Shown in pieces: positions 47,377-49,937 of a stretch of 64,000 bases of DNA; the stretch's first letter is position 1, and each line of letters opens with the position of its first letter. The stretch spans positions 2,833,001 through 2,897,000 of the forward strand of contig NZ_CP039268.1 in NCBI RefSeq assembly GCF_009664085.1. The letters run 5' to 3'. Origin of the DNA: Thermochromatium tepidum ATCC 43061 (GTDB lineage: Bacteria > Pseudomonadota > Gammaproteobacteria > Chromatiales > Chromatiaceae). Below the pieces are notes generated by a model. It saw nothing but the letters and a program-made list of their open reading frames with translations, made no database searches and was not told the origin of the DNA. The position numbers were made by a program, and so were the translations under genes.

Positions 47377-47865
47377 TTAAGCTCGAGCCGTGCGCGCTGC
47401 CGCGCGTCCGATCTCGAACGCCTGCTCGTTGAGCAGGTGCAGCTTCTCGGCCAGATTGGCGTGGATGGCGGCGATCCAGTGCGCCTCGGCGATGTCATCG
47501 AGCACGGTCGAGGCCGCGCCGAGCAGGGCGACGTTGAGGCTTTTCTTGTTCTTGAGCGCCTCGGGGGCGAGCAGGTTGGGTGTGATCAGCACACCCTCGG
47601 CCCGCAGCGTCGGACGGTTGATCTCGACCTGGGTCTCTTCCAGCACCACCAGCACATCGGCCTCGCCTGGCGGGACCATGGGACTCAGGATCCCCTTGCC
47701 ATAACGCACATCACTGCTCACCGAGCCGCCGCGCTGGCTCATGCCGTGCAGCTCGCTCTTTTTGACCTCGAAGCCGGCGCGAAAGGCCGCCTCGGCCAGG
47801 ATATCGGAGGCCTTGACCACGCCCTGACCACCGAGTCCGGCGATGACGATGTTCTTGACGTTCAT
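47377..47865 (-). CDS. iorB: Indolepyruvate oxidoreductase, beta subunit
   Basis: About 162 residues from the ATG at 47865. This is the gamma-type domain of 2-oxoacid:ferredoxin oxidoreductases: IVIAGLGGQGVVKASDIL at the start and SELHGMSQRGGSVSSDVRYG. With IorA it decarboxylates arylpyruvates (from Trp, Phe, Tyr) to aryl-acetyl-CoA, reducing ferredoxin, or runs in reverse for assimilation. It is separated from iorA by the structured element at 47882-48120. Confidence 0.93.
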   Translation of the reverse strand: MNVKNIVIAGLGGQGVVKASDILAEAAFRAGFEVKKSELHGMSQRGGSVSSDVRYGKGILSPMVPPGEADVLVVLEETQVEINRPTLRAEGVLITPNLLAPEALKNKKSLNVALLGAASTVLDDIAEAHWIAAIHANLAEKLHLLNEQAFEIGRAAARTARA

Positions 47866-47881
47866 AGACCCTCCGCAAGGA

Positions 47882-48120
47882 AACCCGCGACTTGAGTCGC
47901 GGGAGGAATGGCGGGTGCGCGAAGCGCACCATGTGGTGTATAATACAGTGTGGTCTCCGGGCGCACGCCGACTGTAACGCCAGTCGAAACCTGGCCCGGA
48001 TTGGCAGCGGAGCCCCGCTGCCAAGGGCGGCTGTAAACACGCCCAATGTTGGGGATGTGGTCAACCATGTTTGCTGCGTCTCACAATAAAGCCTTCGACT
48101 TCAGTCGAGGGTTGTTTACG
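47882..48120. mobile_element. ORF-less IS200/IS605-type relic with guide-RNA-like structure
   Basis: A 240-bp gene-free insert between iorA and iorB. Outer hairpins: CCCGCGACT/AGTCGCGGG (47884-47903) and CCTTCGACT/AGTCGAGGG (48092-48111, one wobble), the subterminal palindrome style of IS200/IS605 elements. Inside: 7-bp hairpin (47914-47930); 7-bp helix (47956-47962 with 47994-48000) enclosing a 6-bp hairpin (47969-47986); perfect 10-bp hairpin (48001-48024); 5-bp helix (48025-48044). TATAAT occurs at 47939. The organisation recalls the omega RNA of TnpB or IscB (HEARO) with the protein gene deleted. Family and strand of the RNA cannot be decided by eye. Confidence 0.6.
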
Positions 48121-48133
48121 TGTTCTCGATTCC

Positions 48134-49759
48134 TCAGTCGACCAGATCCGCCGCGCAGGTGGCGCGCCGTTCGGCGTTGGCCTTCTCGTAGAGCCGGATC
48201 CTGGGTGCCGCGAGCACACAGGGCTGACGGGTGATGATCAGCGAGGTCTCGTTTCGCGCCAGCAGGTCCCGGATGAGATCGCGCAGCGCGTCGTCCTTGA
48301 GCGAGTTGGTGTCCATGACATGGACGTTCTGCACCCCCATGGCGCGTGCTGTCTCCTCGAAGCTGAGCCGATGGGTCGCCGAGTGGTCGAGCAGACGCCC
48401 GGTGCCCGGATGCTCCTGCTGGCCAGTCATGGCCGTGGTGCCGTTGTCGAGGATGAGGACCAGATGCCCGGTCGGCGGCGGGTTATAGACCATCTCGGTG
48501 AGGCCGGTGAGACCCGAATGCACGAAGGTCGAGTCGCCGATGACGCTGACCACCCGCCGCGCCTGGTCCTCGGGCAGCACATGACGCAGACCCAACCCAA
48601 CCCCAATGCTCGCCCCCATGCAGACACAGGTATCCATGGCCGAGAAGGGCGGCAGCACGCCGAGGGTGTAGCAACCGATGTCGCCGGCGACGATGCAGTC
48701 GAGGTCGCGCAGGGCCTCGAAGACGCCGCGATGCGAGCAGCCGGGGCAGAGTTCGGGTGGCCTGCCCTGGGGCGGCATGGCCTCGGGACGGGTGTCTTGG
48801 GCGAGGATGCGCCGCACGCGTTCGACATTGAGCTCGCCGAAGCGATACATCTCGGGCTTGCCCTCGGCCGGGATCCCGGCGGCACGCAAGGACTCGACCA
48901 ATACCGGGTCGCCCTCCTCGATCACGACCAGCCGCTCGACCCGTTCGGCAAAGGCGCGGAGGCGCTCGATCGGTAGCGGGTAGGTCAGGCCGAAGCTCAG
49001 ATGCATGGCCGCAGGCGCGGCCTCACGCGCATGCATGGCGCTGATCCCAGTGGCGATGATGCCGAGCCGGGGATCGCCCTCGTGGATCTCGATGGGTCCT
49101 TCGGACTCGTTCCAGGCCGCGATCTCGGCGAGCTTTTGGCGCAGACGCCGATGCGCCGGTCTGGCATAGGCCGGGATCATGACCCGTGCCGGTAGGTCGC
49201 GCGCGAAGTGCGGCTCGGGCCGGGTCTGGAGTGCCGGACGCGGATTCACCTGGGTCTTGGAATGACAGACGCGCGTGGTCAGGCGCAGGATGACCGGGAT
49301 CTGCCAGCGTTCCGAGAGCTCGAACGCCAGCCAGGTGAAGTCATAGGCCTGTTGCGAGTCATAGGGTTCGAGCATTGGGACGCCGGCGGCACGCGCATAG
49401 TGACGGTTATCCTGTTCGTTCTGGCTCGAGGCCATGCCGGGGTCGTCGGCCGAGACGACCACCAAGCCCCCCTCGACATCGGTATAGGCGGCGGTGAACA
49501 AGGGGTCAGCCGCCACGTTCAGCCCGACGTGCTTCATGGTCACCAGGGTCCGCGCCCCGGCAAAGGCGCTGCCGAGTCCGACCTCGAGCGCGACCTTCTC
49601 GTTCGGCGACCATTGGGCGCGCCCGCCGATCCGGTCGAAGGTCTCGAGGATCTCGGTGGACGGTGTGCCTGGGTATCCCGTGCCTAGCCGGACCCCGGCG
49701 TGCAGCGCCGCCAGCGCAACGGCCTCGTCGCCACTCAATAGAAGTCGCTTGACAGTCAT
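48134..49759 (-). CDS. iorA: Indolepyruvate oxidoreductase, alpha subunit (no C-terminal ferredoxin domain)
   Basis: About 541 residues from the ATG at 49759. N-terminal pyrimidine domain (LLLSGDEAVALAALHAGV, GYPGTPSTEI) and C-terminal TPP-binding domain (LCPGCSHRGVF, GDIGCYTLG, GDSTFVHSGLTGL). The family usually ends in a ferredoxin-like domain with two CxxCxxC motifs; here the protein stops at ATCAADLVD, 14 bases before the mobile-element relic. Either the domain was lost or this is a short subtype. First gene of the leftward unit. Confidence 0.92.
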   Translation of the reverse strand: MTVKRLLLSGDEAVALAALHAGVRLGTGYPGTPSTEILETFDRIGGRAQWSPNEKVALEVGLGSAFAGARTLVTMKHVGLNVAADPLFTAAYTDVEGGLVVVSADDPGMASSQNEQDNRHYARAAGVPMLEPYDSQQAYDFTWLAFELSERWQIPVILRLTTRVCHSKTQVNPRPALQTRPEPHFARDLPARVMIPAYARPAHRRLRQKLAEIAAWNESEGPIEIHEGDPRLGIIATGISAMHAREAAPAAMHLSFGLTYPLPIERLRAFAERVERLVVIEEGDPVLVESLRAAGIPAEGKPEMYRFGELNVERVRRILAQDTRPEAMPPQGRPPELCPGCSHRGVFEALRDLDCIVAGDIGCYTLGVLPPFSAMDTCVCMGASIGVGLGLRHVLPEDQARRVVSVIGDSTFVHSGLTGLTEMVYNPPPTGHLVLILDNGTTAMTGQQEHPGTGRLLDHSATHRLSFEETARAMGVQNVHVMDTNSLKDDALRDLIRDLLARNETSLIITRQPCVLAAPRIRLYEKANAERRATCAADLVD

Positions 49760-49937
49760 TGTGTAAGGTCGCTCTCGTTCTTGGGGTAGGACGTCCGCAT
49801 TATCCGCTGCGTCGCTTGACGACAGCAACCCGGAGCGATCTTGACACCTGTAAGTCGCTGAACGGTAGGGGTGACAATAGGCCTGACGATGGCCAGACCG
49901 CCTGTCACACCTGCCTTAAATCTTGGAACAGCCTCTC
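49760..49937. other. Divergent promoter region, iorA / GGDEF-EAL gene
   Basis: 178 bases between divergent starts. A consensus -35 box TTGACA is present at about 49839 on the + strand, but no good -10 lies at the right distance. Nothing else certain. Confidence 0.35.

Follow-up and report, generated by a model that had tools for sequence, protein, structure and literature searches.

A short element of 254 bp between iorA and iorB in Thermochromatium tepidum ATCC 43061 belongs to a family of 36 solo copies derived from a tnpA-tnpB transposon that is resident in the same genome (2,958,290 bp, a single contig) as five full copies. It is close to certain that this is a non-autonomous IS200/IS605 element, and the presence of a kept omega RNA scaffold within it is strongly supported. 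We consider it likely that the element is a PATE derivative of the resident transposon which keeps the TnpA-recognised ends together with the whole omega RNA scaffold, and which would be mobilised, and its guide used, in trans; degrees of confidence here and below are matters of judgement. The window, the 64,000-nucleotide stretch of DNA that was analysed, holds the copy whose parts are listed in Table 1.

Table 1. Parts and neighbors of the solo element at the iorA-iorB locus (window coordinates).
Feature	Position	Strand	Remarks
Whole solo element (PATE type A, 254 bp)	47866..48119	+	Borders from 42 two-ended copies; empty site in four congeners
Left tip, GCGGAGGGTCT on the - strand right before the iorB ATG, Shine-Dalgarno-like	47866..47876	-	First 10 bases the same in 41 of 42 copies
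Left-end hairpin, presumed TnpA site, CCCGCGACTTGAGTCGCGGG	47884..47903	+	
Second left-end hairpin, GGTGCGCgaaGCGCACC	47914..47930	+	
TATAAT, presumed tnpA -10 box, now just 5' of the RNA part	47939..47944	+	
Deletion junction, left end to tnpB 3' end	47946..47948	+	Comparison with five full copies
tnpB 3' end and right end, holding the omega RNA scaffold	47947..48119	+	173 bp
Perfect 10-bp hairpin, strongly covarying	48001..48024	+	Two-sided changes in 8 of 10 pairs, 15 sequences
Stem GGGCG/CGCCC (ISDra2 stem 1 equivalent)	48025..48044	+	Loop GTAAAC at 48033-48038, pseudoknot half
Right-end hairpin, presumed TnpA site and omega RNA stem 4, CCTTCGACTTCAGTCGAGGG	48092..48111	+	
GTTTAC, element terminus, pseudoknot 3' half	48114..48119	+	
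Presumed 16-nt guide from host flank, between iorA and element	48120..48135	+	Position by analogy with ISDra2 (PMC8612924, in part)
TTCAT target, presumed TAM	47861..47865	+	Reads ATGAA, the iorB start, on the - strand; start codon at 47865-47863
First 162 codons of iorB, counted from the docked ATG; POR domain	47380..47865	-	
iorA-type ORF upstream of iorB, longest ORF as listed	48134..49828	-	

Borders, copies, and parental transposons

The two terminal palindromes, CCCGCGACTTGAGTCGCGGG and CCTTCGACTTCAGTCGAGGG, about 190 bp apart, and the perfect 10-bp hairpin between them had been recognized in a first-pass annotation, and all are present. So is the strong structure it described: folding of 47860-48140 gives z = -5.97 on the + strand and z = -4.96 on the - strand, and none of 200 dinucleotide shuffles equaled either value. 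The interval then assigned, 47882-48120, captured the feature and misplaced its borders, missing 16 bp on the left and including 1 bp of flank on the right. The description of the region as gene-free holds in that no complete element gene lies within it; the coding-like part that it does contain is the 3' end of a tnpB frame.

A genome-wide pattern search with the ends of the element, allowing up to 3 mismatches, matched 43 right ends and 42 left ends, and reversed control patterns matched none. The copies comprise five full elements of 1,679 bp each, with open tnpA (Y1) and tnpB, and 36 solo copies at 93-100% identity to the window copy, of which 20 are of type A (254 bp, window copy included) and 16 of type B (260 bp). 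A single 117-bp copy (L075) has both ends and a third junction and is without the RNA core, and L043 is a right-end relic with a damaged tnpB frame. The other genomic copies that the first-pass annotation had suggested looking for are therefore found, and a covariance model of the RNA, trained on relatives of tnpB from other genomes as well as on the window copy and one full copy, added a divergent relic at C1:2159185, for a total of 44 places in the genome. Compared with the five full copies, the solo form joins a left end of 81 bp (47866-47946, including the TATAAT box) to the 173 bp of 47947-48119, the last part of tnpB plus the right end. The junctions of types A and B are 6 bp apart, which implies either two deletions or one followed by a second. 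In one copy, L052 (G000:C1:452960-453206), a perfect palindrome of much greater length has replaced the left-end hairpin, as a template switch at the hairpin would produce.

The tnpA frame is intact in all five full copies; the Y1 transposase frame of one of them (L018) matches PF01797 with an E-value of 1.9e-39. Their TnpB, 381 aa long, matches PF07282 and PF01385 (RuvC/TNB domains), the strings taken to be its RuvC I, II, and III motifs are intact in all five, and the best of 24 matched PDB sequences is the TnpB-like transposase 8hr5 (E 1.3e-19). Other TnpB families, with open frames of 420-494 aa, occur in the genome at G000:C1:428003, 820217, 300157, and 2165766. The five tnpA-tnpB parents, whose ends are nearly identical to those of the solo copies, bear out the IS200/IS605 origin and MITE-like status proposed earlier, as well as the surmise that a tnpB is encoded elsewhere in the genome. 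The word relic, also applied to the locus, fits badly with 36 copies at such identity, with intact ends and pseudoknot, and with five full-length partners; the solo copies look like a recently amplified family. From the 36 copies and the five intact tnpA frames we infer that solo copies are probably mobilised by TnpA in trans.

The pentamer immediately to the left of the element is TTCAT in 39 of 42 copies, GTCAT in two, and ATCAT in one, and the right terminus is TTTAC in all 42. In other genomes with a TnpB relative, 11 left ends were read by eye, nine of them following TTCAT and two CTCAT. Seven congeners were searched at the iorA-iorB junction; iorB found no match in two of them, and in one (G003) the junction could not be read. 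In the four that could be read (L165-L168), the end of iorA, a GAGGAA motif, and the iorB ATG are contiguous, with neither element nor duplication. Since the site is empty in four congeners, an ordinary conserved intergenic region is ruled out. The element has the features of a PATE, namely palindromes near its termini, no terminal inverted repeats, no target duplication, and ends in common with a resident IS605-type element, represented by the five full copies. A classical DDE-type MITE was also considered and rejected, as the termini are not inverted (AGACCCTCC... versus ...TTGTTTAC), the target is not duplicated, and the empty site is clean.

An omega RNA fold with a terminal pseudoknot

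A scan for TnpB relatives found 17 loci in 28 candidate stretches. Thirteen of these sequences, two of which come from one MAG, were aligned with the window copy and one full copy to make a set of 15, leaving out L103, whose right end is the same as that of L102, and L109-L111, whose contigs end before the right end. The RNAalifold consensus has 38 pairs, 27 of them with two-sided changes. On this structure 93.7% of paired cells pair, compared with 71.5% (sd 1.3) in shuffles and with 38-40% when slid by one to three columns, a control on which the structure is favored through its derivation from the same alignment. All five fold measures exceed every one of 500 shuffles.

The pseudoknot, six bases long (GTAAAC/GTTTAC), pairs in 93.3% of 90 cells, in an alignment whose row L100 looks off by one column; the shuffled value is 89.6%, and 8 of 500 shuffles reach the observed one. 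Slid versions pair in 2-58% of cells. Covariation here is modest, with two-sided change in two of the six pairs, as reached by 69 of 500 shuffles. In relics of the congener G003 and in L153, read by eye, the pseudoknot is kept as GTCAAT/ATTGAC in L154, L157, and L153 and is broken in L155, L156, and L159. The guide-RNA content that the first-pass annotation had supposed is thus substantiated for the 173-bp region, which consists, like the omega RNA of TnpB, of a tnpB 3' end and right end with a conserved fold, and in which an internal loop can form a pseudoknot with the guide-proximal terminus.

Within the solo copies, both halves of the pseudoknot are unchanged in 36 of 36. One broken pair occurs in each of 12 solo copies, 11 times in the two 5' hairpins and once in the right-end hairpin, and in none of the five full copies; in 35 of the 36 solo copies every pair of the core (-97 to the end) is intact. 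In ISDra2, part of PMC10097598 describes the 5' portion of the RNA before -116 as dispensable. An unlikely alternative to which these counts pertain is a plain PATE, moved by TnpA in trans, in which the omega RNA is unused, passive baggage of the right end. Gene-free, ends-only IS605 derivatives are abundant in Haloquadratum (PMC3119063, in part), and L075, which has both ends and lacks the core, indicates that ends alone suffice and hence that the RNA is not needed for mobility; yet the core-bearing form has reached 36 copies against one of the ends-only form, a disparity that can by itself be due to chance. The integrity of the core in 35 copies and of the pseudoknot in all 36 likewise speaks against idle baggage, although the copies are too young, and their changes too sparse, for selection on the RNA to be visible, C-to-T prevailing at unpaired sites too. 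Moreover, since the omega RNA sits in the right end, any deletion that spares this end would keep it too, without selection for its retention being required. A further argument against the plain PATE comes from the congener G003, whose element L154 has a junction of its own, running into the start of tnpA, and has kept the scaffold too. Apart from L154, a degraded scaffold-bearing solo element (L163) occurs in G005, and G003 holds, in addition, a short copy that lacks the core (L161). G005, a congener of 3.0 Mb, has 35 PF07282 matches, many of them in open frames that, at about 230 aa, fall short of the usual TnpB length. With up to nine candidates scored per genome, DNA comparison places the element in at least three of 93 relatives; with up to eight, the RNA model places it in at least five of 369 genomes of the class, these being T. 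tepidum itself and four weak matches of 26-34 bits.

The 16-mers 3' of the right ends are all different, 43 among 43. We presume that this flank is the guide and that the joint which TnpB would cleave once the element has left consists of TTCAT and the flank, by analogy with ISDra2, the precedent for a flank-derived guide position (PMC8612924, in part). The internal deletion has brought the left-end box, TATAAT in 32 of 36 solo copies and TATAAG in four, just 5' of the RNA part; a consensus scan found no complete sigma-70 promoter. Transcription of the solo RNA is presumed, and its use by TnpB in trans is likely.

Docking at putative start codons

On the opposite strand TTCAT reads ATGAA, an antisense start codon. 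In 21 of the 42 copies this ATG (ATGAC in L056) begins a frame that runs 60 codons or more without a stop, and 17 of those frames have a Pfam domain, the exceptions being those at L053, L064, L065, and L074; the docked ATGs are putative start codons, as an upstream frame is also open in several cases, above all L060 and L078. Among these 17 frames are those of iorB and of a cyclophilin; in others the domain begins at residue 2 (a type IV pilin), residue 4 (an Obg GTPase), residue 5 (an Rnf/Nqr subunit), or residue 8 (a deaminase). Fourteen of the 17 docked copies are solo, two are full, and one is the 117-bp copy.

The left tip on the - strand is GGAGGGTCT-ATG, which contains GGAGG. It is through this tip, combined with a target that is an antisense ATGAA, that a Pfam-supported frame begins right beside 17 of the 42 copies. 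Against a generic anti-SD sequence the tip forms a duplex of -10.0 kcal/mol, which 1.25% of tip shuffles match, and the displaced native leaders at the 17 docked copies have a median of -5.9 kcal/mol, compared with -3.0 for the other 25 flanks. The tip pairs better than the displaced leader in 15 of 17 cases, the native leaders at L056 and L075 being stronger. In the same test, tips of relatives reach -5 or lower in 10 of 14 cases and fall short in four, a readable tip at L105 standing outside the set. The conserved CCTC of the left end could also serve TnpA.

Such docking invites the interpretation of the element as a host 5' leader or regulator, in which a terminator-like hairpin and GGAGG on the - strand would control the docked genes and the guide RNA would be irrelevant. 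We judge this improbable. Terminator-like sites are found on the - strand, and the 17 abutting copies and the strength of tip pairing agree with such a role, but the remaining 25 of 42 copies are not docked to a Pfam-supported frame, and congeners do without the element at iorB. By a crude rule, moreover, 8 of 42 insertion sites count as docked, compared with 7 of 93 among the window's other TTCAT sites, which serve as control; the excess is not significant (p = 0.07), and a start-codon preference is therefore not claimed.

Known systems and a possible mechanism

The first-pass annotation had left the omega RNA as either of the TnpB or of the HEARO/IscB kind, and the former stands. The HEARO/IscB kind has next to no probability in spite of two sub-threshold HEARO matches elsewhere in the genome, because the HEARO covariance model (Rfam RF02033) has no match at the locus and the parents are tnpA-tnpB; the wider Rfam search gave two chance-level matches at the locus, both under their thresholds. 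The kept omega RNA at a tnpB 3' end, the pseudoknot, and the differing flanks therefore make this a solo guide-RNA element of TnpB type. The HEARO matches just mentioned, G000:C1:84762-84994 (L079, 66.1 bits) and C1:1181927-1182118 (L080, 36.1 bits), fall under the cut-off of 83 and are perhaps solo HEARO RNAs. L079 lies between ORFs that we take to be transporter-like and mtnA-like, in a short gap with no evident IscB-size ORF. The IscB marker PF14239 had no match in the genome, and equally none in 14 of 14 controls, so that its silence is uninformative. Standalone IscB omega RNA loci, which are guide-RNA loci without an adjoining nuclease gene, were reportedly described by Altae-Tran in 2021; those are of IscB/HEARO type, whereas the solo elements here are of TnpB type. 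A 2023 paper by Meers is said to be the key one on TnpB-driven spread.

The closest known RNA is that of ISDra2 TnpB (PMC8612924, PMC10097598, both in part), which likewise derives from the tnpB 3' end and right end, takes its guide from the flank, and forms a pseudoknot with the element terminus, at the same place beside the guide (PMC10097598); its 5-base TAM is TTGAT, compared with TTCAT here. The ISDra2 RNA, however, lies in an element that encodes tnpB, whereas the solo elements lack tnpB and have an extra covarying 5' hairpin. The PATEs of Haloquadratum walsbyi, according to excerpts of PMC3119063, are similarly gene-free, multi-copy, with palindromes near the termini and without target duplication, and arose by core deletion from IS605-type elements; those excerpts, which predate the omega RNA, describe no kept guide-RNA scaffold, and some of these PATEs are 52-bp forms consisting of ends only. 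A PATE-like element of Halanaerobium hydrogeniformans (PMC7290912), made of a 28 nt left end, the last 58 nt of tnpB, and a 160-nt right end, is probably scaffold-bearing as well, but it is present in one copy, and the excerpted text mentions no promoter fusion, guide, or start-codon docking. Among the literature matches listed, none describes TnpB-type solo omega RNA elements with start-codon docking; priority is not claimed.

A mechanism consistent with these observations would begin with an internal deletion that removed tnpA and most of tnpB and left both TnpA-recognised ends and the omega RNA scaffold in place. TnpA from the five full copies would move the solo element in trans, the left-end TATAAT would drive a transcript of about 170 nt plus flank, and TnpB from the full copies would trim and load it. 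Guided by the flank, the complex would cut the TTCAT-plus-flank joint left after excision, and repair from the sister copy would restore the element, in keeping with the introduction of PMC11870625, according to which TnpB favors transposon retention. Insertion would cost little, since the target, read antisense, is an ATGAA start codon, for which the left tip would supply a new ribosome-binding site.

More tentatively, and with slightly less than even confidence, we propose that 36 solo guide-RNA genes of T. tepidum, carried by transposons and each programmed by the site where it landed, share the TnpB of five full copies. The solo element would then be a parasite that hijacks both the transposase of its parent and its RNA-guided retention, and that lands on antisense start codons (TTCAT), where insertion between the native Shine-Dalgarno sequence and the start codon would be tolerated because the tip supplies a ribosome-binding site. 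If this is true, TnpB is a shared good of the element family and guide RNAs can spread without a nuclease, which would bear on the origin of separate guide arrays and nucleases, as in CRISPR-Cas12. The genome would constitute a natural experiment, with 36 guides of known target and one presumed TAM, and start-codon docking would offer a testable reason for the pairing of the target motif with the left tip.
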